Shown here piece by piece: positions 39,440-59,643 of a stretch of DNA of 64,000 nt. Made by a program: the position numbers and the translations under genes. The first letter of the stretch is position 1, and every line of letters begins with the position of its first letter. Below the pieces are notes generated by a model. It saw nothing but the letters and a program-made list of their open reading frames with translations. It was not told where the DNA came from and did not search any database. The DNA is from Arthrobacter sp. PAMC25564 (GTDB lineage Bacteria; Actinomycetota; Actinomycetes; Actinomycetales; Micrococcaceae): the NCBI RefSeq assembly GCF_004798705.1, contig NZ_CP039290.1, forward strand, positions 2,418,001 to 2,482,000. Reading direction: 5' to 3'.

Positions 39440-41569
39440 TCAGCGGACCTGGGCGGGGTTCAGTTTCAGCCGGCGCAGCAGCTGCGCGTTCAGGGCGACG
39501 ACGATCGTGGAGACGGACATCAGCACGGCGCCGGCAGCAGGCGAGAGCACGACGCCGGCGAAGGCGAGCACTCCGGCGGCCAGCGGGACGGAGATGATGT
39601 TGTAGCCGGTGGCCCAGATGAGGTTTTGCCACATTTTCCGGTAGCTGGCCCGGGAGAGGTCCAGCATCGACAGGACGGCCCGGGGATCGTTGCCGGCCAG
39701 GACAACGCCGGCGGATTCCATCGCGACGTCGGTGCCGGCGCCGATCGCTATCCCCACCTCGGCCCTCGCCAGGGCGGGGGAGTCGTTGACGCCGTCCCCG
39801 ACCATGGCGACCTTCAGTCCGCGGGCCTGCAGCTCAGCGACCTTCTTGTCCTTATCGGCCGGGAGGACTTCGGCGAACACCTCATCGATGTTGAGCTCTT
39901 CCGCGACGGCGCGGGCGACCTGCCGGGCGTCACCGGTGATCATGGCGACTTTGATGCCGCGGTCCTGCAGTGCCTTGACGGCCTGCCGGGATTCGGTGCG
40001 GACGGCGTCCTCGAGGCTCACGGCTCCGAGGATCCTTCGCCCGTCAATGATGTGCAGCACGGCGGCGCCGCGGTCCATCCACGCCCGGGTGGCGGCGGCC
40101 AGTGCCGGCGGTTCTTCCGCTTCGAGGTCGCGGAGCAGGGCCGGGCCGCCGACCTGGACGGTCCTGCCGTCGACCGTGGCGCGGACACCGCGGCCGGTCA
40201 TGGACGAAAATCCGGAAGCCGCCGGAATCGCCATGCCCTGCTCCCGCGCGGCTCGGACGATGGCCCGGGCCACCGGGTGCTCGCTGTCCGCTTCCACGGC
40301 TGCGGCCAGCGCCAGGAGATCGTTCCGGTCCAAGCCCTCGGCGGCCGCGACGTCCTTGAGCGCGGGTTCGCCCCTGGTCAGCGTCCCGGTCTTGTCGAAG
40401 AGCACGACGTCGACGGTGCGCATGCGCTCCAGGGCCATCCGGTTCTTGATCAGGACACCTGCCCTGGCCGCCTGCTCGGTGGAGATTGCGATCACCAGGG
40501 GGATGGCCAGGCCCAGGGCATGGGGGCAGGCGATCACGAGCACGGTGACGGTACGGGTGACGGCGTCGGGAACGCTGCCCAGCATTGACCAGACGATGAA
40601 CGTGATGACGCCGGCGCCGGCGGCGAAGTAGAACAGGAACGCGGCGGCCCGGTCGGCCAGGGCCTGGGCCTTGGAGGAGGAGGCCTGCGCCTCGGCGACC
40701 AGCCGCTGGATCCCGGCCAGGGCGGTGTCATCCCCGACGGCGGTGACCTGCACGCGGACGGTGTTGTCTGTGGCAACCGTTCCGGCGATGACCTTATCGC
40801 CCGGTGAGCGGAGGACGGTCCTGGATTCGCCGGTGATCATCGATTCGTCAAACTCGGCCTGGCCGTCGACGACCATGCCGTCGGCCGGCATCCGGGCGCC
40901 GGAGCGGACCAGAACGGTGTCCCCTGCCACGAGTTCGCTGACTTTGACGGTTTCCGTGCCCTCAGCGGTGATCCGGTCCGCCTCGTCGGGCAGGAGTGCG
41001 GCGAGAGCGTCGAGCGCGCCCCGTGCGGAGCCGAGGGCGCGCATCTCGATCCAGTGCCCCAGCAGCATGATCGCCACCAGCAGGGCCAGCTCCCACCAGA
41101 AGTCCAGGTCAAAACCGCCGATCCCGAGGCTGGTGACCCAGGAGGCGATGAAAGCGACACTGATGGCCATGGCGATCAGCAGCATCATGGCAGGTTTCCG
41201 GCTCTTCAGCTCCTCCAGGCCACCCCTGAGGAAGGGCTGACCACCGTAGACGAAGATCACGGTGCCCAGCAGCGGCGGGATCCAGGCCGAGCCCGGGAAA
41301 ACCGGGGGCATGTAGCCGAGCAGGTGCCCGAACATCGGGCTGAAGTAGACCACCGGCACCGACAGGGCCAGCGTGAGCCAGAACCTGTTCTTGAACATCG
41401 CAACGCTGTGGCCGGCATGCTGGCCGTGGCTGTGCACCATGTGCTCGTCGTCCATGCCATGGCCATGGACGGCGTGGGCGTCAGGGGCATGCGCGACGGC
41501 GGACCCGCTGCGGGGAGCGCTGGGCTCGTCCTGCCGGGCGGAAGGTCCGTTGTGGTGGTCCTGGTCCAT
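39440..41569 (-). CDS. copB: Copper-type P1B ATPase (CopB class)
   Basis: A 709-residue heavy-metal ATPase. A His/Met-rich N-terminus (HAVHGHGMDDEHMVHSHGQHAGH region) replaces the usual CxxC domains. The membrane metal motif is CPH (ACPHALGLAIP), diagnostic of the CopB/P1B-3 class. Phosphorylation site DKTGT, TGES (MITGESRTV), the HP motif (DSEHPVARAI) and GDGVNDSPAL are intact. It exports copper. A 17-base CsoR-type palindrome lies 52 bases upstream. The N-terminal frame starts at MDQDHHN. Confidence 0.94.
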   Translation of the reverse strand: MDQDHHNGPSARQDEPSAPRSGSAVAHAPDAHAVHGHGMDDEHMVHSHGQHAGHSVAMFKNRFWLTLALSVPVVYFSPMFGHLLGYMPPVFPGSAWIPPLLGTVIFVYGGQPFLRGGLEELKSRKPAMMLLIAMAISVAFIASWVTSLGIGGFDLDFWWELALLVAIMLLGHWIEMRALGSARGALDALAALLPDEADRITAEGTETVKVSELVAGDTVLVRSGARMPADGMVVDGQAEFDESMITGESRTVLRSPGDKVIAGTVATDNTVRVQVTAVGDDTALAGIQRLVAEAQASSSKAQALADRAAAFLFYFAAGAGVITFIVWSMLGSVPDAVTRTVTVLVIACPHALGLAIPLVIAISTEQAARAGVLIKNRMALERMRTVDVVLFDKTGTLTRGEPALKDVAAAEGLDRNDLLALAAAVEADSEHPVARAIVRAAREQGMAIPAASGFSSMTGRGVRATVDGRTVQVGGPALLRDLEAEEPPALAAATRAWMDRGAAVLHIIDGRRILGAVSLEDAVRTESRQAVKALQDRGIKVAMITGDARQVARAVAEELNIDEVFAEVLPADKDKKVAELQARGLKVAMVGDGVNDSPALARAEVGIAIGAGTDVAMESAGVVLAGNDPRAVLSMLDLSRASYRKMWQNLIWATGYNIISVPLAAGVLAFAGVVLSPAAGAVLMSVSTIVVALNAQLLRRLKLNPAQVR

Positions 41570-41621: not shown

Positions 41622-41638
41622 ATACCCCTAGGGGGTAT
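41622..41638. promoter_or_regulatory. CsoR/CstR-type operator upstream of the copper ATPase
   Basis: ATACCCCTAGGGGGTAT matches the GC-tract palindromes found at seven places in the sulfur island. It has one extra base at the centre compared with the 16-base sites, a spacing that could favour a copper-sensing CsoR over CstR. No CsoR gene is adjacent. Confidence 0.75.
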
Positions 41639-49060: not shown

Positions 49061-50356
49061 CTAGCTGGTCACGGGTTTTGCGTGCGCCGATGCGCGGCGG
49101 CCGTGCAGCAAGGTCCAGATGACCACGACAGCCACCAGGGCCATCGCGAGGAAACCCAGTCCGGAGTAGCCCACCGAGGCCAGGACCGGGCCCGCCAGGG
49201 CCCCGCCGAGAGCGCCGGCAGCATTCATGCTCAAATCCGAGAGGCCCTGGATGGCGGGCCGGTCCTGGATGTGGACCGATTCCGCGACCATGGCAGAACC
49301 TGCCACTACCGAAGCCGACCATCCGAGTCCGAGCAGGACGAGGCTGACCGTGACTCCGGTGCGGGAGTCCGCTGCGACACCGGCGATCAGCAGGGAGGCC
49401 AGAAGCATGGCCTGGCCAAGCAGCACGACGCGCAGCCTGCCGGCTTTGTCCGCCAGCCACCCGAAGACGGGGGAGAGGGCGTACATCCCCGCGATGTGCA
49501 GGCTGATGGTGAAGCCTACGATTACCAGGCTTGCTCCGTGTTCGCGCAGGTGGACCGGGGTCATGGACATCAGCGCCACCATCGTGGCGTGGCTGAGTGC
49601 GACGGCGGCCACCGCGTAGCGCGCCCCCGGGTTGCTGCGCAGTATCAGGGAGCCGCTCCGTGGCCGGGGCGCCTCGACGCTTAGCTCGCGCAGCGACATC
49701 GCCGCCAGCAGCGGGTCGGGGCGCAGCCCGGTCAGGTACACGAGGGCCGCGGCCAGCTGCGCGGCCACGGAGAAGGCGAAGGCGCCCGTCAGGGGCGGCA
49801 GGCCGAGCACGGAGCCCACGGCTTCGCCCGGACCGAAGAGGTTGGGGCCAAGCACTGCCCCGATGGTGGTGGACCAGACGACGATCGAGAGGTCCCGCGC
49901 CCTGGTGCCGGGCCGGGCAAGGTCAGTGGCGGCGAACCTGGCCTGCAGGTTGACCGCGGAACCCGCCCCGAGCAGCATCAAACCAAGCAGCAGCAGGGGA
50001 AAGACCGACACCGAGGCCGAGGTAATGGCAATGACGGCGCCGGTTCCGGCGATGAGCGCCCCGGTGGAGAGCGACATCCGCCGTCCCCGGGCGACCGCGA
50101 GCCGGGCAAGGGGCACGGCAGCGACGGCCGCCCCGAGGGTGCTCATCGTGGCGGCCATGCCCGACCATGCCGGCGATCCGGAAAGCTGTGCCGCGAGCAG
50201 GGAGCCGAGGGACAACGTCGCGCCCATCCCGATCCCGCCAAGGATCTGGCCGCCGACCAGCACGGAGACCACTTTGCGCTGAGGCGGGACGCCAACGGCG
50301 TGGCCGGCCAGGGAAGCGAGGGGCGGTCGTCCTGTGGACCCGGGAGTTGTTACCAT
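49061..50356 (-). CDS. MFS transporter behind a CstR-type operator
   Basis: A 431-residue 12-helix MFS protein: PLARLAVARGRRMSLSTGALIAG (motif A-like, cytoplasmic loop 2-3), a second similar loop GWLADKAGRLRVVLLGQ, and helices throughout. The substrate is unknown. A 16-base ATACCCC-type palindrome ends 17 bases upstream of the ATG, which strongly suggests induction by the persulfide/sulfide regulator of this island. Export of a sulfur compound or thiol is a reasonable guess only. Confidence 0.82.
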   Translation of the reverse strand: MVTTPGSTGRPPLASLAGHAVGVPPQRKVVSVLVGGQILGGIGMGATLSLGSLLAAQLSGSPAWSGMAATMSTLGAAVAAVPLARLAVARGRRMSLSTGALIAGTGAVIAITSASVSVFPLLLLGLMLLGAGSAVNLQARFAATDLARPGTRARDLSIVVWSTTIGAVLGPNLFGPGEAVGSVLGLPPLTGAFAFSVAAQLAAALVYLTGLRPDPLLAAMSLRELSVEAPRPRSGSLILRSNPGARYAVAAVALSHATMVALMSMTPVHLREHGASLVIVGFTISLHIAGMYALSPVFGWLADKAGRLRVVLLGQAMLLASLLIAGVAADSRTGVTVSLVLLGLGWSASVVAGSAMVAESVHIQDRPAIQGLSDLSMNAAGALGGALAGPVLASVGYSGLGFLAMALVAVVVIWTLLHGRRASAHAKPVTS

Positions 50357-50372: not shown

Positions 50373-50388
50373 ATACCCCAAGGGGTAT
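50373..50388. promoter_or_regulatory. CstR-type operator (MFS side)
   Basis: ATACCCCAAGGGGTAT, an almost perfect 16-base palindrome, lies immediately upstream of the MFS gene on the minus strand. Confidence 0.85.
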
Positions 50389-50418: not shown

Positions 50419-50434
50419 ATACCCCTGGGGGTAT
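50419..50434. promoter_or_regulatory. CstR-type operator (small Cys-rich protein side)
   Basis: ATACCCCTGGGGGTAT, 16 bases, lies 36 bases upstream of the 38-residue cysteine-rich gene on the plus strand and 46 bases from the MFS-side copy, so each divergent gene has its own site. Confidence 0.85.
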
Positions 50435-50470: not shown

Positions 50471-50587
50471 ATGTGCAGTCCCGTCCGTTGCAACAAATGT
50501 GGAAAGATCACCTGGGCCGGCTGCGGCGAGCATGTCGAATCGGTCATGGCCGACGTTCCGGTGGAACAGCGCTGCACCTGCGGCTGA
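50471..50587 (+). CDS. 38-residue cysteine-rich protein (paralogue 1)
   Basis: A tiny protein read from ATG with GAGGAG six bases upstream. Its six cysteines fall in a C-x-N-K-C, W-A-G-C-G-x-H-V and a final R-C-T-C-G, which could form a zinc ribbon or a persulfide-carrying site. It shares the pattern C-x2-C-x-K-x-T-W-A-G-C-G-x-H-V-x-x-V-M-x-x-V-P-x-x-x-R-C with the 55-residue protein at 54161. Both genes stand directly behind CstR-type palindromes. No function is known to me. Confidence 0.85.
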   Translation: MCSPVRCNKCGKITWAGCGEHVESVMADVPVEQRCTCG

Positions 50588-50732
50588 CCCGACGGTCCAG
50601 GACCTGCCCGGCAATCCGTCCCCGGAGCCCGGGGACGCGTTGCCGGGAACTGCGGGCCACTTGAGGCCGGTGGAAGCAGTGGAGCGATCGGACACACCGT
50701 GGCGATTTTCTCGGCCGCGGCCGGCTTGTGAC

Positions 50733-51203
50733 CTATGGGTTTACGTTTGGGCGTCCGTGGTCGCCGGCGGAGACCACCGAAATCTCAGGGGCTGTTATCA
50801 GTGAGTTGTGCACGGTGCAGTGCGACGCGACGGCGAGCAGAGCCCCGCGCCGCTCGGCGGGCACGCCTGCGGGGATGGTAAGGCGCACCTCGATCCGGGC
50901 GACGCGGGCAGGGCGTGAGCCCATGCTGAAACCCGCCTCCACGGCCAGGCCGTCGGTGGGCAGGTTGTGCCGGTCCAGGTAGCGGCGGGCGTAGAACGCA
51001 ACGCATCCTGCGAGGCTCGCAATGAACAGCTCCGTCGGGGTGGGGCCGGTATCCTCCCCGCCGTCGCTGGCTGGCTGGTCAGTCCTGATGATGTGACCGC
51101 GGACATTGATGTCGAAGCGGTCACCGCCCTGGTGTACGACGCGTACTGGCTGGATAACGTCGGACCCAAGGCCGAGGGCTGTGATGACTGGTTCGCTGCT
51201 CAT
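50733..51203 (-). CDS. OsmC family peroxiredoxin-like protein
   Basis: The 156-residue protein has the OsmC fold with both redox cysteines: Cys67 in SLAGCVAFYARRYL and Cys129 in ASHCTVHNSL. OsmC/Ohr proteins reduce organic hydroperoxides, and some act on persulfides. It lies 70 bases after the thioredoxin gene on the same strand and probably shares its operator-controlled transcript, which fits disposal of oxidised sulfur species using thioredoxin. Confidence 0.9.
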   Translation of the reverse strand: MSSEPVITALGLGSDVIQPVRVVHQGGDRFDINVRGHIIRTDQPASDGGEDTGPTPTELFIASLAGCVAFYARRYLDRHNLPTDGLAVEAGFSMGSRPARVARIEVRLTIPAGVPAERRGALLAVASHCTVHNSLITAPEISVVSAGDHGRPNVNP

Positions 51204-51273
51204 GTGTGCTTCTCGATCCGTCGGTTTGGCATGCTGCCCCGGGGCCCGGGACGGGGCTGGGTCCGGTGGTTTC

Positions 51274-51639
51274 CTAGGATGCCGGGGAGGCTGCCAATTT
51301 CGCCCGGACCTCTTCCATGTCCAGTTCCTTGATGCCGTTGATGAGCTGCTCCAGCCCGCTCGCGTTCATCGCCCCCGGCTGGGAGAAGACGAGGATCCCT
51401 TCCCGGAAGGCCATCAGAGTGGGGATGGAGGTGATACGGGCGGCCGCGGAGAGGCCGGGCTCGGCCTCAGTGTCCACCTTCGCGAAGACGACGTCCAGGT
51501 GGCTGTCCGATGCTTTGCTGAACGTGGGGGCAAACATCCGGCAGGGGCCGCACCAGGCTGCCCAGAAGTCCACCAGTACGATGTCGTTGCCGGCGATGGT
51601 GCCGTGGAAGGTCTTTTCGGAAATGTCGATGGTTGCCAT
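51274..51639 (-). CDS. Thioredoxin of the sulfur island
   Basis: A 121-residue thioredoxin with the active site Cys30-Gly-Pro-Cys33 (DFWAAWCGPCRMFAP), cis-Pro in TSIPTLMAF and a short extra C-terminal helix (LDMEEVRAKLAASPAS). A CstR-type palindrome ends 12 bases upstream of the ATG, so it is probably induced by reactive sulfur. It likely reduces persulfidated proteins or feeds OsmC and the rhodaneses. Confidence 0.92.
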   Translation of the reverse strand: MATIDISEKTFHGTIAGNDIVLVDFWAAWCGPCRMFAPTFSKASDSHLDVVFAKVDTEAEPGLSAAARITSIPTLMAFREGILVFSQPGAMNASGLEQLINGIKELDMEEVRAKLAASPAS

Positions 51640-51650
51640 GGCAAAATAAT

Positions 51651-51666
51651 ATACCCTAGGGGGTAT
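51651..51666. promoter_or_regulatory. CstR-type operator (thioredoxin side)
   Basis: ATACCCTAGGGGGTAT differs from the ideal palindrome at one position. It begins 12 bases upstream of the thioredoxin start codon. Confidence 0.82.
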
Positions 51667-51695
51667 TCAGGCAAGATGGGCGTTGATTTGCATTT

Positions 51696-51711
51696 ATACC
51701 CCCGGGGGTAT
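51696..51711. promoter_or_regulatory. CstR-type operator (rhodanese side)
   Basis: ATACCCCCGGGGGTAT is a perfect 16-base palindrome, 45 bases from the thioredoxin-side copy and 53 bases upstream of the divergent rhodanese gene. Confidence 0.88.
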
Positions 51712-51764
51712 CATGATGGAAGGGGAGATGCCCCGGCTCCCGGATACCACAAGAGGACACCGGC

Positions 51765-52079
51765 ATGAAGAGCATTTCAGTGAACGACCTGGCCGCACTC
51801 GGGCCTGATGTTTCCATCATCGACGTCCGGGAAGAGGCGGAGTACTCGGAGGCCTGGGTCCCGGGAACCAGGAACATTCCACTCTCGCGCTTCCAGCAGT
51901 CCCTCGGTGACGTTCCGATCGGGCGGACGGTCTATGTAATGTGCGCTTCCGGTGGCCGCAGTTCCCGTGCTACGGCACACCTTGCGGGGGAAGGCTACGA
52001 CGCGGTGAATGTCATGGGTGGCATCACCGAGTGGTACCGCAACGGGCACCCGGTCAAGTACCAGGCCGGCGGCAAGTGA
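51765..52079 (+). CDS. Single-domain rhodanese 1
   Basis: A 104-residue rhodanese with the active-site loop Cys60-A-S-G-G-R-S (VYVMCASGGRSSR), DVREEAEYSEAWVPG near the start and GGITEWYRNG near the end. It moves sulfane sulfur between thiols, or to cyanide or sulfite. It begins the plus-strand rhodanese series and is controlled by the palindrome at 51696. A 23-codon open frame right after it (52082) is too short to call. Confidence 0.92.
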   Translation: MKSISVNDLAALGPDVSIIDVREEAEYSEAWVPGTRNIPLSRFQQSLGDVPIGRTVYVMCASGGRSSRATAHLAGEGYDAVNVMGGITEWYRNGHPVKYQAGGK

Positions 52080-52234
52080 GCATGCCCTCCACCGTCAGCC
52101 CCCAGAAGCCCACCCTGCAGGAAATCCGCACACTCTTCCCGCGCCTGACCTAGGCTGGCCCCGGCCTTTTTCCTCGGCAACCCGCAGTCCATATTTTTCA
52201 CCGCAACAGCCCGTCCAACCGAAAGGTCCAGCCC

Positions 52235-52537
52235 ATGGAAATGACCCCACAGCAGCTCGCGGAACAGCTCAAGAGCGGCAGTGAAGTCCAGATTTTTGAT
52301 GTCCGCGAATCAGCTGAAGTCGCCGGAGGGATGATCCCCGGTGCAAGGCACATTGCCTTGGGCGAACTGGCCGGCCGCCTCAATGACCTGGACAAGTCCC
52401 GACCCGTCATCGCCGTGTGCCGCAGCGGGCGCCGCAGTGCCGCTGCTGCGGACCAGTTGGCAGCCGCAGGCTTCACTGCCTACACCGTGCCCGGCGGGAT
52501 GCTCGACTGGTCAGCCGCGGGCCTCCCCACCGGCTGA
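52235..52537 (+). CDS. Single-domain rhodanese 2
   Basis: A 100-residue rhodanese with the loop Cys62-R-S-G-R-R-S (IAVCRSGRRSAAA), DVRESAEVAGGMIPGARHI and a closing GGMLDWSAAGLP. The positively charged loop differs from that of rhodanese 1, suggesting a different sulfur acceptor. It follows rhodanese 1 by 155 bases and ends before a strong hairpin. Confidence 0.92.
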   Translation: MEMTPQQLAEQLKSGSEVQIFDVRESAEVAGGMIPGARHIALGELAGRLNDLDKSRPVIAVCRSGRRSAAAADQLAAAGFTAYTVPGGMLDWSAAGLPTG

Positions 52538-52549
52538 CCCCATCAGACC

Positions 52550-52583
52550 GCCCGGGCGGCATGCCCCCACGTGCCGCCCGGGC
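52550..52583 (+). terminator. Hairpin after rhodanese 2
   Basis: GCCCGGGCGGCA (52550-52561) pairs perfectly with TGCCGCCCGGGC (52572-52583) around a ten-base loop, 13 bases after the stop codon; only TTCC follows, so termination strength is uncertain. Confidence 0.65.
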
Positions 52584-52694
52584 TTCCACTTGCCCGGGCC
52601 GTGTCCTTGACATGGCGAACCAGGCGGTGGACGGCGGCTACCCGCAAGCACGGGGCCGCCACCCGAAATGCTCCAAGTTATACCGAAAGAGATC

Positions 52695-53303
52695 ATGACT
52701 TCCTTGAATACGACCAATGCCGTTGATTCCGCTCCTAAGTCCATCGATGCCTCGACCCTGAAGACCTGGGAAGAAAACCACGACGATCTGATGATCATCG
52801 ACGTGCGCAGCGGCGCAGAGTTCGATGCCATGCATATCAAGGGCTCCTACCATGTGCCGCTGGCTATGCTCAGCGAACACACGGAAGAATTCGCGGCAAA
52901 AATGGGCACCCGCGTGGTCCTCGTCTGCCAGTCGGGCAACCGGGCCGAGCAGGCCCGCAAACACCTGGATTCCGTCGGTCTGGCCAGTGCCAGTGTCCTG
53001 TCCGGGGGTGTCCCCGCCTACGCAACCGCAGGCGGCAACGTTGTCCGCGGCCGTGGCCCCTGGGCCCTGGAACGCCAGGTCCGCATGACCGCGGGCTCCC
53101 TGGTGCTCGCCAGCATCGTCGCGTCGAAATTCGTCTCGCCGAAGCTGGGCCTGGTTGCCGGCGGCATCGGGGCGGGCCTGACGTTCTCCGCAGCGACCAA
53201 CAGCTGCGCGATGGGCCAGATGCTCTCCAAGATGCCGTGGAACCGCTCCGCCAACGAGCCCACCGCGCACCAGGCCCTGCAGAACCTGGGCGCGAAGGCA
53301 TGA
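52695..53303 (+). CDS. Rhodanese 3 with C-terminal DUF2892-like membrane segment
   Basis: The 202-residue protein joins a rhodanese domain (DVRSGAEFDAMHIKG; active-site Cys78 in VLVCQSGNRAEQ; SGGVPAYATAGG) to a C-terminal two-helix region (RMTAGSLVLASIVAS; LVAGGIGAGLTFSAATNSCAMGQML) with another Cys. That anchors sulfur transfer at the membrane. The stop overlaps the ATG of the TauE exporter (ATGA), which suggests direct hand-over of sulfur to the exporter. Confidence 0.9.
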   Translation: MTSLNTTNAVDSAPKSIDASTLKTWEENHDDLMIIDVRSGAEFDAMHIKGSYHVPLAMLSEHTEEFAAKMGTRVVLVCQSGNRAEQARKHLDSVGLASASVLSGGVPAYATAGGNVVRGRGPWALERQVRMTAGSLVLASIVASKFVSPKLGLVAGGIGAGLTFSAATNSCAMGQMLSKMPWNRSANEPTAHQALQNLGAKA

Positions 53304-54064
53304 TCATCACCGCGGCGGCGTTCGGGCTCATCGTCGGCGGCCTGCTGGGCCTGGTCGGGGGTGGCGGATCCATTCTCGCCGTCCCCGCCCTGGTCTATGG
53401 CGTGGGGCTGCCGCTTGCCGCGGCGATCCCGACGTCGCTGGCCGTCGTCGGCGTTTCCTCCGCCGTCGCGGTGCTGCCCCGGCTGCGGACCGGGGTGAAC
53501 TGGAGGCTGGCACTGATCATCGGCGCCGCAGGAACCGCCACCGCCTACCTCGGTGCCATGGTCAACCGGCTCCTGGACCCAAAGATCCTGCTGCTGGCCT
53601 TCGCCGCCATCATGGTCTTCGCCGGCATCCGGATGCTGATGCCGTCCACATCCTCCGGCGGCGCCTGCGCACTGCCCGGAGGCGGCATCAACTGGCGTAG
53701 CTGCCTGCCCAAGGCCATCGCCACCGGTGCCGTCGTGGGCTTCCTGACCGGATTGCTCGGCGTGGGCGGCGGCTTCCTGATCGTCCCGGCGCTCACCCTG
53801 GTGCTCGGGCTCCCGATGGCGCTGACCGTGGGGACGTCCCTGGTCATCATCGTCATCAACTCCGCCGCCGGCTTCGCAGCGCACCTGGGTGACCTGCAGA
53901 TCGACTGGGCCGTCACGGCAGCGTTCGCGGTAACCGCGATGGCCGCGTCACTCGCGGCCGGACGGATCGGCACCAGCATTCCGGATAAGGCACTCAAGCG
54001 CGGTTTCGGGATTCTGGTCCTGGTCATCGCCGCTTACGTCGCGGTGCAGGCGCTCCTCTCCTGA
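53300..54064 (+). CDS. TauE/SafE family sulfur-compound exporter
   Basis: A 254-residue membrane protein with the two homologous halves of TauE proteins, each starting with a glycine-rich turn (GLLGLVGGGGSILAVPAL; GLLGVGGGFLIVPALTL). Eight helices are expected. Family members export sulfite, sulfoacetate or similar anions. Coupled to a membrane rhodanese, it most likely removes sulfite or thiosulfate formed during persulfide oxidation. Confidence 0.92.
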   Translation: MIITAAAFGLIVGGLLGLVGGGGSILAVPALVYGVGLPLAAAIPTSLAVVGVSSAVAVLPRLRTGVNWRLALIIGAAGTATAYLGAMVNRLLDPKILLLAFAAIMVFAGIRMLMPSTSSGGACALPGGGINWRSCLPKAIATGAVVGFLTGLLGVGGGFLIVPALTLVLGLPMALTVGTSLVIIVINSAAGFAAHLGDLQIDWAVTAAFAVTAMAASLAAGRIGTSIPDKALKRGFGILVLVIAAYVAVQALLS

Positions 54065-54087
54065 GAGTGACCGCAACGGGACAAAGA

Positions 54088-54117
54088 AAGCGCCGGAGGA
54101 CATGCCCTCCGGCGCTT
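54088..54117 (+). terminator. Terminator of the rhodanese-TauE operon
   Basis: AAGCGCCGGAGG (54088-54099) pairs with CCTCCGGCGCTT (54106-54117) over a six-base loop, followed by GTCTATTTCG. The 12-pair stem lies 24 bases after the exporter stop and may also serve the opposite strand. Confidence 0.8.
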
Positions 54118-54160
54118 GTCTATTTCGCAACGTGTGTGCCTGGGTACTGGCAGGTTCGAG

Positions 54161-54328
54161 CTACCGTCCGAACAGCTTCGCGAAGAAGCCCTTGCCGGTC
54201 GACTTTTCCTGCTCGTGCCCCCGGCAGCGCTGGGAAGCCGGAACCCCGCGCATGACCTGGTCAACGTGCTGGCCGCAGCCCGCCCACGTCGTCTTCTGGC
54301 ACTTCTTGCATGTCACTGCACGGCACAT
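54161..54328 (-). CDS. 55-residue cysteine-rich protein (paralogue 2)
   Basis: ATG with GGGAG seven bases upstream. The first ~36 residues repeat the pattern of the 38-residue protein at 50471: C-K-K-C, then TTWAGCGQHVDQVMRGVP and Q-R-C. The second cysteine pair at the end is replaced by R-G-H and a basic tail (STGKGFFAKLFGR) that could be a membrane-associating amphipathic helix. A perfect CstR-type palindrome lies 38 bases upstream. The family is unknown to me. Confidence 0.85.
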   Translation of the reverse strand: MCRAVTCKKCQKTTWAGCGQHVDQVMRGVPASQRCRGHEQEKSTGKGFFAKLFGR

Positions 54329-54366: not shown

Positions 54367-54382
54367 ATACCCCATGGGGTAT
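54367..54382. promoter_or_regulatory. CstR-type operator upstream of paralogue 2
   Basis: ATACCCCATGGGGTAT is a perfect 16-base palindrome on the upstream side of the minus-strand cysteine-rich gene; no other gene start is as near. Confidence 0.88.
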
Positions 54383-54482: not shown

Positions 54483-54878
54483 GTGGAAGAAGTCCTGATT
54501 GCAGGCGGGAAAGGGCGGCTCGGTGTCAGCGGGGCAGGGTTTCTTCACCTGTTCTGGACGCCCGGTTCACAGGTCGACCTTGATGACGCCATGAAGTCCA
54601 TCGAGAAGATGCAGGGCCTGGGCGCAGGCCTGGCGCTGCCTCTCCTGGTCGAAATCTCTGATGTGACCATGAGTGCCGCGGCGAGGGGCGCCTTTGAACG
54701 GGCCGAGGCCGTCTTGGCTGTGGCTATGGTGGGATCCACCGTCGTCGACAAGGTTCTGGCGGCCGCCCTGGGACGGCATGGCTTCTGTCCGCACGCCTAC
54801 TTCACCTCGCGCGCGGAGGCAATTGAATGGCTGGATAGTCTCGTCTCGTCACAGGGCCGCGGGTTGCGCCAGGCATAG
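54483..54878 (+). CDS. SpoIIAA/STAS-like small protein
   Basis: The 131-residue soluble protein begins with GTG. The order of elements (a short beta start, LHLFWTPGSQVDLDDAMKSIEKM, ALPLLVEISDVTMSAAARGAFER, AVAMVGSTVVDKVLAAALG, FTSRAEAIEWL) resembles SpoIIAA-like STAS/SEC14 proteins (DUF7793-type) of actinobacteria. The role is unknown. It lies between the sulfur genes and a stretch of gene relics and has no obvious partner. Confidence 0.6.
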   Translation: MEEVLIAGGKGRLGVSGAGFLHLFWTPGSQVDLDDAMKSIEKMQGLGAGLALPLLVEISDVTMSAAARGAFERAEAVLAVAMVGSTVVDKVLAAALGRHGFCPHAYFTSRAEAIEWLDSLVSSQGRGLRQA

Positions 54879-54949: not shown

Positions 54950-55160
54950 TTGATTGCACTGCGCATCGGGAGGATCGTTGGCCCTGCGGGACGACGTCGG
55001 GACGCCGCCGGCAGGGCTGAAGACCATGAGGCGTTCGGAGACAACGCCCGGGACGTGCACGCTGATGTGCTGCGGCGGGCATCCGAAGCCGGGGTGACTG
55101 TCACCGGTGAAGTGACAGCGGGGCATCCCGCGGAGGTGCTCCTGAAGGCTGACGGCAGGT
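54950..55160 (+). pseudogene. Universal stress protein relic
   Basis: The frame reads AFGDNARDVHADVLRRASEAGV, then TVTGEVTAGHPAEVLLKADG, which is the middle of a UspA fold (the helix before beta 3 and the V-x-x-G-x-P-x-x-x-L-L motif). The N-terminal domain and the ATP-binding G-x2-G-x9-G end are absent; the frame runs on into unrelated residues. It is best read as a decayed Usp gene that was cut by the rearrangement that formed the next relic. Confidence 0.6.
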
Positions 55161-55173
55161 GCCAGGCCCTCAG

Positions 55174-55840
55174 GGGCCCTCATCCGCGCAGGCAACCCGG
55201 CTTCTGGAGACTATCGGCCCCAATGCGGTTCCCCTGAAGCGGACCGGGCTCGCGGTGCGCATCCTGAGGAAACTCTGGGCGCCGGTGCCCTGGATGCTGG
55301 AGGCAACAATTGTCTTTGAGCTCGCACTCGCCAAGTCGCTCGACTCGCTCATTATTCTGGCGGTCCTGAGCCTGAATACGGCACCGGGAATTATCCAGGA
55401 GAAGCGGTCCGAGGCGGCAGTCGATCTGTTGCGAACCCGGCTGGAGGTCAATGCCCGGGTGTTGCGTGACGGGACGTGGACTCTGCTGCCGGCCGCCCGG
55501 GTGGTTCCCGGCGACGTCATCGGCGGTTCCGTGGCCTTGCTCTGGGCTTCAGGGCAGCGGTGGCCCGGAGGCGGACTTGACCAGCTGCGCACCGTTATCT
55601 TCCTGACGCTCGTCTTCAGCAGCCAGATCACGAGCTATGTCGTGCGCACAGCGCGGCCGGCGTGGACGGACCGGCCCTCCAGATTGTTGGTGGCTGCATG
55701 GGTGATTGATATCGCGACCGCGGCGGGCGGGTTCATCGTGGACCTCCTGAAGGTACCGGCCTTCCGAAAGCTGAAGCTCCACGTCCACCGGGGCCCGGCC
55801 CCGCCGGCTGCCGCACCCGCTTCACCGGCGTCTCCCAGCA
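55174..55840 (+). pseudogene. Proton-type P-ATPase relic lacking its catalytic core
   Basis: The frame begins with the N-terminal helix of a plasma-membrane H+-ATPase (SSAQATRLLETIGPNAVP), then the first membrane pair and the actuator start (LRKLWAPVPWMLEATIVFEL; EKRSEAAVDLLRTRL; LPAARVVPGDVIGG). It then jumps directly to the last helices (LDQLRTVIFLTLVFSSQI, AWVIDIATAAGGFIVDLLKVP). The DKTGT phosphorylation site, nucleotide domain and hinge, about 550 residues, are missing, so it cannot pump. The internal deletion is in frame. Confidence 0.75.
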
Positions 55841-57326: not shown

Positions 57327-58736
57327 TCAGCTGCTGGAAACGGATTCCCGCGACTGCTGCCAGGCGGCCCAGCCTGCGTAGCTGCCGTCGAGCTCGACGA
57401 CGTCGTAGCCGGCGCGGCGCAGTGCGCTGGCCGCGACGGAGTTCCGGACCCCGCTCTGGCAGTAGGAGACGATGGTGCCCTCGGTCGGGAGCTCATCGAG
57501 GTTCCACATCACGCGGCCGCCGCTGAGCTGGTGGGAGCCGGGGATGTGTCCGGCGGCGTGTTCGGTGCGGTTGCGGACGTCCAGGACCATCGCGGCGTCG
57601 AACCCCTCGAGTTCTTCGGGCTGGATCAGCTTCGGGGTGCTGGCAGGAAGGCCTTCGAGGCTGGTGAGGTAGCCGGCGACGTTGTCGATGCCGACCCGGA
57701 CCAGGTGGTCCCACATCTCCTGCGCGGCCGCCTGGTCCGGAGCCAGCAGCACGAGCGGGTTTTTGTCCGTTTCCGGGTTGACCACCCAGGCGCCGAAGCT
57801 GGCCGTGGACTTGCCGGCCGGGACGTTCAGGGAGCCGGTGACGGTGCCCTCGTGGACTTCGGTGTTGGAACGGGTGTCGACGAAGGTTGCCGTGTCCGCG
57901 GCGAGGCCGGCCACGACATCGGCGGTGGCGAGTTCCTCAAGAGGGGTCCGTTCGCCCATTACGGCGGGGCCTTCGCGGTTTTCGCGTTTCATCCGGCCGA
58001 AGTAGGCGTGCGCGTCGGGCTGGCCGTCGAGGAGTTCGTTGATGAAGCCCTGCTCGTCGTTGGCGGCCAGGTACGGGCCCCACCAGGCGTAGAGCCGTTC
58101 GTAGCCGACCGTGCTGGAGGGGATGGCACCCAGGGCCTTGCCGCAGGCGCTTCCGGCGCCGTGGCCGGGGTGGACCTGGACGTGGTCCGGCAGGGCCAGG
58201 AACTTCTCGCGCAGGCTGGTGAAGAGCTGCTTGGCGCCAGCGAAGCGGGTGTCCACGCCACCGGCTGCCTCATCGAGCAGATCCGGGCGGCCCAGGTCCC
58301 CGGAGAAGACGAAGTCACCGGAGAGCAGGTAGCCGGGGGTGTCGGCGAACGCACCGTCAGTGATCAGGAACGACAGGTGCTCCGGGGTGTGGCCGGGGGT
58401 GTGCAGGGCCTTGACGGTGATGTTGCCAAGGGTAATTTCGTCGTTGTCATTGAGGCGTTCGGCCTCGAAGCGGTACTGCCAGTCGGTGCCGCCCTCACCG
58501 GAGACGTAGGCGGTGGCGCCGGTCGCAGCGGCCAGTTCACGGGTGCCGGAGAGGAAGTCGGCGTGGATGTGGGTCTCGGTGACGGCCACGATCTTCATGC
58601 CGTTCGCTGCAGCCAGGGACTGGTACACAGCGATGTCGCGGCGGGGGTCGACGACGAGTGCCTCGCCCTTGGCCTGGCAGCCGATGAAGTAGCTGGCCTG
58701 GGCGAGGTCTTCGTCGTAGATGCGCTCGATAAGCAT
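57327..58736 (-). CDS. cstB: CstB-like persulfide dioxygenase-rhodanese fusion
   Basis: The 469-residue protein has an N-terminal MBL domain of the ETHE1/persulfide dioxygenase type (iron motif ETHIHADFLSG, LHTPGHTPEHLS, SGDFVFSGDLGRPDL), then two rhodanese domains. The first (residues ~265-355) lacks a catalytic Cys and is a pseudo-rhodanese; the second has Cys426 in SYCQSGVRN. This is the domain order of staphylococcal CstB, which converts persulfide to thiosulfate. A CstR-type palindrome lies 70 bases upstream. Confidence 0.92.
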   Translation of the reverse strand: MLIERIYDEDLAQASYFIGCQAKGEALVVDPRRDIAVYQSLAAANGMKIVAVTETHIHADFLSGTRELAAATGATAYVSGEGGTDWQYRFEAERLNDNDEITLGNITVKALHTPGHTPEHLSFLITDGAFADTPGYLLSGDFVFSGDLGRPDLLDEAAGGVDTRFAGAKQLFTSLREKFLALPDHVQVHPGHGAGSACGKALGAIPSSTVGYERLYAWWGPYLAANDEQGFINELLDGQPDAHAYFGRMKRENREGPAVMGERTPLEELATADVVAGLAADTATFVDTRSNTEVHEGTVTGSLNVPAGKSTASFGAWVVNPETDKNPLVLLAPDQAAAQEMWDHLVRVGIDNVAGYLTSLEGLPASTPKLIQPEELEGFDAAMVLDVRNRTEHAAGHIPGSHQLSGGRVMWNLDELPTEGTIVSYCQSGVRNSVAASALRRAGYDVVELDGSYAGWAAWQQSRESVSSS

Positions 58737-58805: not shown

Positions 58806-58821
58806 ATACCCCCAGGGGTAT
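58806..58821. promoter_or_regulatory. CstR-type operator (cstB side)
   Basis: ATACCCCCAGGGGTAT, 16 bases, lies 69 bases upstream of the cstB-like gene on the minus strand. Confidence 0.87.
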
Positions 58822-58873: not shown

Positions 58874-58889
58874 ATACCCTCCGGGGTAT
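58874..58889. promoter_or_regulatory. CstR-type operator (regulator side)
   Basis: ATACCCTCCGGGGTAT, 16 bases, lies 38 bases upstream of the CsoR-family regulator gene, so the regulator probably controls itself. Confidence 0.85.
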
Positions 58890-58927: not shown

Positions 58928-59185
58928 ATGGAACTTGATTCGACAGAACTCACCCCCGTCATCAACCGGCTCAAGCGCGCCCAGGGACAGCTCGCCGCCG
59001 TCACGCGCATGTTGGAGGAGGGCAGGGACTGCAAGGACATCGTCACCCAGCTCGCAGCTGTCTCGAAGGCTTTGGACCGGGCAGGCTTCGCCATCATCGC
59101 CAGCGGCCTTGAGCAGTGCCTGGTCCGCGGGGATGCGAGCATGGACACCAAGGACCTGGAAAAACTTTTCCTCTCCCTCGCCTGA
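58928..59185 (+). CDS. cstR: CsoR-family persulfide sensor (CstR-like)
   Basis: An 85-residue all-helical regulator. The basic helix VINRLKRAQGQLAAVTRML binds DNA. The two conserved cysteines are Cys35 (GRDCKD) and Cys64 (LEQCLV). Copper-sensing CsoR also needs a His four residues before the second Cys; here that position is Gly60, as expected for CstR, whose cysteines form a trisulfide with persulfide. Operators next to eight genes or gene pairs in the window and the sulfur genes around support that role. GGAG precedes the ATG. Confidence 0.9.
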   Translation: MELDSTELTPVINRLKRAQGQLAAVTRMLEEGRDCKDIVTQLAAVSKALDRAGFAIIASGLEQCLVRGDASMDTKDLEKLFLSLA

Positions 59186-59217
59186 GGCACGCCGCCACTA
59201 ACCATGCAGGAGCATCC

Positions 59218-59643
59218 ATGAGCTACACGCATACCGTCACTGTCCCGCTGGCCTGGGACGAGGCAGTGCAGCGCACCCGCGAGGCCCTCGCCGGACAGGG
59301 TTTCGGCATTCTCTCGGAGATCAATGTCCGTACCACGTTTGAGGCCAAACTCGGCGCCGGTGCCGGCGAGGACCTCGGCGACTACGTGATCCTGGGCGCC
59401 TGCAACCCGGCACTGGCAAGCAGGGCACTCTCCGCAGAGCCGGACATGGGCGCCTTGCTGCCCTGCAATGTCGTCGTCCGCCGCGGCAAAGACGCTGCCG
59501 AAACAACCGTCCAGGCCATCGACCCGCAGACCATGGTCACACTCAGCGACAGCCCGGCCGTCCGCGACGTCGCCAACGACGCCGATGCCCGCCTCCGGGC
59601 AGCCCTGGCCTCCGTTAGCGGCGCCGGCACTCCGGGGAACTGA
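59218..59643 (+). CDS. DUF302 domain protein
   Basis: The 141-residue protein has the DUF302 pattern: a first strand (TVTVPLAWDEAVQRTREALAG), then QGFGILSEINVRTTFEAKLG, YVILGACNPALASRAL (with Cys) and LPCNVVVRRGKD (second Cys). DUF302 proteins are small, often found with sulfur and heavy-metal genes; the paired cysteines could carry sulfur or metal. It follows the regulator by 32 bases and probably shares its transcript. Confidence 0.88.
   Translation: MSYTHTVTVPLAWDEAVQRTREALAGQGFGILSEINVRTTFEAKLGAGAGEDLGDYVILGACNPALASRALSAEPDMGALLPCNVVVRRGKDAAETTVQAIDPQTMVTLSDSPAVRDVANDADARLRAALASVSGAGTPGN

Follow-up and report, generated by a model that had tools for sequence, protein, structure and literature searches.

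The window analysed here is a stretch of 64,000 nucleotides from Arthrobacter sp. PAMC25564 (contig NZ_CP039290.1, positions 2,418,001 to 2,482,000), in which two very small open reading frames (ORFs) encode Cys-rich proteins of 38 and 55 amino acids (aa) in the vicinity of genes for sulfur metabolism and for CstR, a CsoR-family repressor. A first-pass annotation of the letters alone had described them as paralogs likely to be real, each with its own ribosome site and CstR-type operator. The two genes and their operators, found as exact matches to ATACCCCNNNGGGTAT, are given below with positions counted from the first letter of the window; gene coordinates include the stop codon, operators have no strand, and N4 refers to the spacing of the operator half-sites.

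50471..50587, plus strand, tail-less family protein, 38 aa, C-terminus CTCG
54161..54328, minus strand, tailed family protein, 55 aa, C-terminus GFFAKLFGR
50373..50388, CstR-type operator (N4) between the 38-aa gene and a divergent MFS gene, exact ATACCCCNNNGGGTAT match
50419..50434, second CstR-type operator (N4) of the 38-aa gene, in the region it has in common with the MFS gene, exact ATACCCCNNNGGGTAT match
54367..54382, CstR-type operator (N4) of the 55-aa gene, exact ATACCCCNNNGGGTAT match

Both ORFs were found where they had been placed, with the lengths of 38 and 55 aa when the stop codon is counted, and both proteins exhibit the proposed motif (C-x2-C ... C-G-x-H ... R-C). Their paralogy was confirmed by a search of the 4.17 Mb genome, which aligned them with 61% identity across residues 1–36 (E-value 5.3e-11); the next-best genome matches have E-values of 0.18 and 0.61, and the two proteins are the sole credible copies of the family in this genome. 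The ribosome sites are plausible (AGGAG at 5 nt and AAGGGAG at 7 nt ahead of the ATG), and exact operator palindromes are present upstream of each gene separately. The palindrome TACCC-N4-GGGTA occurs at 10 sites genome-wide, of which 7 fall within this 8.5 kb locus; since the reversed pattern is found at 8 sites, the signal lies in the clustering and not in the total number. Purifying selection is clear (pairwise ratio of non-synonymous to synonymous variation, pN/pS, 0.22) among the 79 tailed copies of what we call set A, i.e. the best 80 of 338 confirmed loci, which hold 96 family genes and, being the best-ranked, are biased towards close relatives of the window. The two window proteins are members of a real, uncharacterised family, and the suggested tie of these paralogs to a persulfide regulon extends, on the basis of sequence, far beyond the window.

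The search with the 55-aa protein retrieved 852 proteins, a profile built from 27 diverse copies 3,306 clusters at 90% identity, and a profile built from 10 distant copies 2,055 proteins, with no precomputed Pfam domain on any row among the best 120 of each of these searches. The window proteins have nothing above or near the Pfam and NCBIfam cut-offs, three further family members gave no Pfam match, and the 55-aa protein has no sequence relative in the PDB. Literature searches with the motif words yielded three papers, judged by their titles to be on unrelated topics (cat viruses, malaria); titles and abstract openings name no small protein of a CstR regulon, an absence that is unproven given that subscription journals are mostly uncovered. 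Among the matches listed, the source names are nearly all actinobacterial, with the exception of a deltaproteobacterial metagenome-assembled genome (MAG; P0272) and a record titled as an Acidobacteria MAG (L054). Conservation was analysed in 325 proteins, comprising the two window proteins and all listed search matches with repeats removed; these are best-scoring selections, hence the invariance may be overstated. C7, C10, G17, C18, G19 and H21 are present in all 325, C35 in 324 and W15 in 288. All 325 also exhibit a Met-Cys start (it coincides with the given start in 304, whereas in the other 21 the given start lies further upstream), and C35 is followed by either Cys at position 37 (119 proteins) or His at position 38 (210 proteins), alternating as metal ligands may. 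The Met-Cys start and the C37/H38 pair are family-wide features absent from the first-pass annotation. The family occurs in two forms: in 16 two-copy loci of set A, identified with the motif pattern, one copy is long (53–57 aa) and tailed and the other short (38–44 aa) and tail-less, a pattern which is also that of the window and which holds in 16/17 two-copy loci overall.

The genomic neighborhood of set A was scanned with 'sulfur-type' profiles built from the CstR, rhodanese, thioredoxin, TauE, metallo-beta-lactamase (MBL), OsmC and DUF302 proteins of the window; as these profiles are self-built, some rhodanese or thioredoxin matches may be unrelated. An operator of its own was found within 120 bp of 61/96 family genes, and 67/96 have a sulfur-type gene at a distance of up to 4 kb; 29/96 have the operator with no sulfur-type gene that close. 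For 92/96 there is either the operator or, no more than 350 bp away on the same strand, a sulfur-type gene, and every one of the 96 has an operator, a sulfur-type gene at up to 4 kb, or both. A further 8 kb criterion singled out 26 loci (409 kb) which have an operator but lack any sulfur-type gene over that distance. Of their 28 palindromes, 27 precede a family gene by at most 120 bp, and 22 of these are found 49–52 bp from its start codon. A CstR-like gene was present in 20/20 genomes whose family gene stands apart (loci picked by eye from the 80, although at one of them, L075, a rhodanese is in fact nearby). By eye, the CsoR-family regulators near family genes look to be of CstR type in the readable rows, none of which has a His at the fourth residue ahead of the second Cys; the row of the L125 regulator is only a fragment.

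A less biased view was obtained from 119 genomes drawn from the order of the window, with thresholds of E-value 1e-5 for the family gene and 1e-15 for CstR. The family gene was found in 63 genomes and CstR in 64; 55 have both, 8 only the gene, 9 only CstR and 47 neither (odds ratio 36, relatedness ignored). Of the 76 family genes, 31 lie within 500 bp of cstR, at distances of 4–235 bp, and 45 within 4 kb, while well under one such pair is expected by chance (about 1.2 cstR genes per genome of about 3.9 Mb). The possibility that homologs would be found mainly outside sulfur loci, against which the first-pass annotation had set its proposal, thus does not apply in the order. The close spacing of these 31 copies, together with two loci (L012 and L033) where a divergent cstR is the only sulfur-profile match within 4 kb, might also be explained by a feedback partner of CstR, which strips sulfur from the modified repressor or otherwise resets repression; many copies stand alone, however, and 9/64 CstR genomes have no family copy, and we regard such a role as quite improbable. 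That the family belongs to the CstR regulon in the order of the window is, judging from these sequence data, almost certain, and by sequence the two-form family is a standing part of the CstR-controlled response to sulfane sulfur in this order.

The operator spacing provides an independent means of telling sulfur from copper control. The 68 operators of family genes have predominantly N4 spacing (N4 in 65, N3 in 2, N5 in 1), as do all 28 sites upstream of cstR (from the 25 of 64 cstR genes with a site) and 120/129 of all palindromes in set A. Copper csoR genes (101 in 86/119 genomes) were analysed at the 30 loci with the best matches, hence those nearest to the organism's own CsoR: 29/30 loci have a site of this kind and 32/33 sites are N5. 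The Arthrobacter genome itself encodes three CsoR-family regulators, one of which exhibits Cys-His-Cys, which we take to be the copper CsoR signature, adjoins a gene for a heavy-metal P-type ATPase and has an N5 palindrome upstream. A palindrome of the copper type (N5) is likewise found at window positions 41623-41637; it precedes a gene for a P-type ATPase (39440-41569, minus strand) and differs in spacing from the seven N4 sites of the sulfur locus. The spacing agrees with sites in the available parts of two published reports: the site ATACCn6GGTAT of the persulfide-sensing regulator of Streptomyces coelicolor, from the circuit of ScCsoR, persulfide dioxygenase (PDO), rhodanese and TauE, corresponds to N4 as in the window (PMC7533328), and the copper CsoR of S. 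lividans has the consensus ATATACCCCTNAGGGGTATAT and the site TACCCCTNAGGGGTA, corresponding to N5 (PMC3902906). N4 for sulfur and N5 for copper constitute a simple rule that separates both regulons in these genomes, by which further regulon members could be found.

The CstR and CsoR calls in the 119 genomes never coincided at one place. Occurrence of the family gene is not positively associated with that of copper CsoR in these genomes (both in 41, only the gene in 22, only CsoR in 45, neither in 11; odds ratio 0.46, p 0.07), and the nearest pair on a shared contig, out of 76 family and 101 copper csoR genes, is 34.6 kb apart. These results bear on the idea of a copper metallothionein under copper CsoR or RicR control, resembling MymT, which we take to be a small copper metallothionein. 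Such proteins are also tiny, Cys-rich and under a CsoR-family regulator, the operators here are of CsoR-family type and a similar palindrome precedes the P-type ATPase gene of the window; yet the operators and the neighbors of the family are of the sulfur and not the copper type, and the predominance of N4 over N5 and the missing linkage to copper CsoR make this idea so improbable that we reject it.

Outside the order the picture is more diffuse. At an E-value of 1e-3 a family copy was found in 36 of 296 genomes of the phylum, the Arthrobacter genome included, giving 37 copies at 36 loci with up to 20 kb of context (one further locus, L139, was lost as the motif pattern missed it). Sulfur-type genes lie within 4 kb of 20/37 copies, so that in the phylum homologs come close to being mainly outside sulfur loci, and cstR within 4 kb of 17/37. 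The operator accompanies 6/37 copies, in one case as the only sign of sulfur control; relaxed operators were found upstream of 7/37 copies and in 75/7,400 random stretches, i.e. they are enriched, yet absent from most. At the 23 loci away from clear sulfur clusters, 93 of 110 rough gene calls were scanned (the 17 dropped were mostly very long or overlapping ORFs); CsoR-type proteins are the commonest neighbors, with four members, among the 25 of 135 families listed, and cstR lies within 4 kb at 5/23 of these loci. The coupling to sulfur is firm in the order of the window and partial elsewhere in the phylum.

Several observations weigh against the overall reading of the family, with its two forms, its CstR control and the sulfur carriage set out below. 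Sixteen of the 37 phylum copies have neither operator nor sulfur-type neighbor, which speaks against a universal coupling. In the order, 8/63 gene-bearing genomes lack a CstR match at 1e-15, and the odds ratio of the co-occurrence carries no correction for relatedness. At the only locus of the phylum draw with two copies (L125) both are long, with 54 aa each. Finally, the second CstR paralog of the Arthrobacter genome itself (L185, G000:C1:422005-422329, 73% identical to that of the window) has an N5 site directly upstream. The 16 phylum copies are those at L115, L119, L123, L128, L132-L134, L136, L138, L140, L142, L145 and L147-L150. None of the three other genomes of the same genus that were drawn has the family gene and two of them have CstR, hence the family gene is patchy.

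The remaining features of the locus are as follows.

51651..51666, CstR-type operator (N4) between the thioredoxin and rhodanese genes
51696..51711, CstR-type operator (N4) ahead of the rhodanese gene
58806..58821, CstR-type operator (N4) between cstR and the MBL-rhodanese gene
58874..58889, CstR-type operator (N4) between cstR and the MBL-rhodanese gene
58928..59185, plus strand, CsoR-family repressor of CstR type, with two Cys and Gly at what we take to be the position of the copper-binding His of CsoR (start by eye)
59215..59643, plus strand, DUF302 protein directly behind cstR
57327..58736, minus strand, fusion of a metallo-beta-lactamase fold and a rhodanese, persulfide dioxygenase-like by architecture
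49061..50356, minus strand, MFS transporter, divergent from the 38-aa gene with the operator region in common
50733..51203, minus strand, OsmC-like protein
51274..51639, minus strand, thioredoxin
51765..52079, plus strand, rhodanese
52235..52537, plus strand, rhodanese
52695..53303, plus strand, rhodanese with a YgaP-like transmembrane part (start by eye)
53300..54064, plus strand, TauE/SafE sulfite exporter

An ORF matching DUF7793 (54483-54875) lies divergent from the 55-aa gene, past its operator. For the region 55159-55700, possibly a remnant, nothing more than a weak match was obtained, to the N-terminal portion of a cation P-type ATPase.

AlphaFold 2 predicted the same small core for both proteins, with strands at residues 3–6 and 13–16 and a helix from residue 22 to 25 or 26. 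The mean predicted local distance difference test score (pLDDT) is 84.3 for the short form and 77.8 for the long one, with about 83–89 for residues 1–40 and 55–59 for the tail. No significant PDB match was obtained for the fold of the 55-aa protein; the best Foldseek match, Tim15 (E-value 4.6), was judged to be due to chance. The core is of the beta-beta-helix kind. A nucleic acid-binding zinc ribbon, with RNA polymerase or the ribosome as a conceivable target during sulfur stress, would agree with the source name of P0141 ('predicted nucleic-acid-binding Zn-ribbon protein') and with a sub-threshold match of the 38-aa protein to RNA_pol_N (E-value 0.095). However, these scores are far below the Pfam and NCBIfam cut-offs and neither a family nor a fold match was obtained, and we consider this function quite improbable as well. 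In the long form, the most common C-termini are GFFAKLFGR (23/325) and GFFARLFGR (14/325), and the tail KGFFAKLFGR resembles the membrane-targeting tail of MinD (KKGFLKRLFGG), a likeness limited to ten residues. The earlier characterization of this tail as basic and amphipathic was borne out in its first part, the tail being basic and also aromatic and conserved, and not in its second, since its hydrophobic moment does not exceed what shuffling the tail gives.

As to function, we infer a role as a sulfane-sulfur carrier from the conserved thiols, the neighboring genes and the absence of TusA at the locus; our best guess, offered with somewhat less than even confidence, is a metal-stabilised carrier with membrane-tethered and soluble forms. 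Each protein would fold as a minimal knuckle stabilised by a metal, probably zinc, with C7 and C10 together with C35 and C37/H38 as likely structural ligands, while C18-G-x-H21 and Cys2, the latter N-terminal after removal of Met, are likely to be the reactive groups. Persulfide would modify CstR and thereby open the promoters, both forms would be made, and they might take up sulfane sulfur and exchange it, in either direction, with the rhodaneses and the MBL-rhodanese; the tailed form would act at the membrane, next to TauE and the YgaP-like rhodanese, and the tail-less form in the cytosol. The family may fill the slot held by DsrE/TusA-type carriers in a Firmicutes cluster. According to the available parts of the published reports, the cst genes of Staphylococcus aureus and the yrkD cluster of Bacillus licheniformis likewise combine a CstR-type repressor, rhodaneses, a protein of the persulfide dioxygenase-rhodanese type, TauE and thioredoxin (PMC5480029, PMC9918477), and the DsrE/TusA homologs YrkE and YrkI of the latter are called potential sulfane sulfur carriers (PMC9918477). 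In contrast, no TusA gene lies near CstR in the 119 genomes of the order (none closer than 82.8 kb on shared contigs, for 49 TusA and 73 CstR genes), and a tiny Cys protein, sometimes in two forms, occurs instead. The S. coelicolor circuit is described, in the available part of its report, with four genes and no small protein (PMC7533328). The proposed role of a small persulfide carrier beside rhodaneses is that of TusA and DsrE, but the family proteins are smaller, have another arrangement of Cys residues and gave no match of PF01206 (TusA) to a window protein up to an E-value of 10. TusA is missing from 37/64 CstR genomes, including that of the window. The carrier reading also has points to its debit: 27/64 CstR genomes have TusA as well, so that any replacement is not strict, and 22–54% of shuffles reach the hydrophobic moment of the tail (four family tails and that of MinD). 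A bolder version, in which a new minimal class of carriers (metal-stabilised, <60 residues) relays persulfide through the Met-excised N-terminal Cys and C18-G-x-H21, as a membrane/soluble twin that replaces TusA in actinobacterial defence, is rather unlikely.

The main rival of the carrier reading is a zinc buffer or reserve: if zinc becomes scarce under sulfide or persulfide stress, then zinc, and not sulfur, may be what the proteins store or deliver. This would make use of up to seven conserved Cys/His residues and rests on the zinc-limitation response that sulfide causes in S. aureus, according to the available part of that report (PMC5480029). Conversely, the invariant G17-C18-G19 and H21, with W15 in 288/325, look like more than a metal sponge, and no zinc transporter appears among the neighbor families listed at the 23 phylum loci (MgtE, a divalent-cation transporter, accounts for 2/93 neighbor proteins there); neither argument is decisive, and we regard the buffer as somewhat unlikely. 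Among the persulfide defences known from Gram-positive bacteria, CstR systems are a main one, and the parts lists covered here were described for Staphylococcus, Bacillus and Streptomyces. An extra, conserved component with thousands of members, those tested having no Pfam or NCBIfam model, would be a missing piece of this defence and, if true, either a new sulfur carrier or a link between sulfide stress and zinc.

Family genes were also found on 78 plasmid records, while 22 plasmid records contain portions of sulfur clusters of a similar kind; the plasmid cluster matches listed (H122-H131) are from Arthrobacter and Paenarthrobacter, and none spans 80% of the query. A family member (65.5%) was also identified in a 'Bacteriophage sp.' record from human faeces (MT835623.1, 19139-19300), which might be a mis-sorted bacterial contig.

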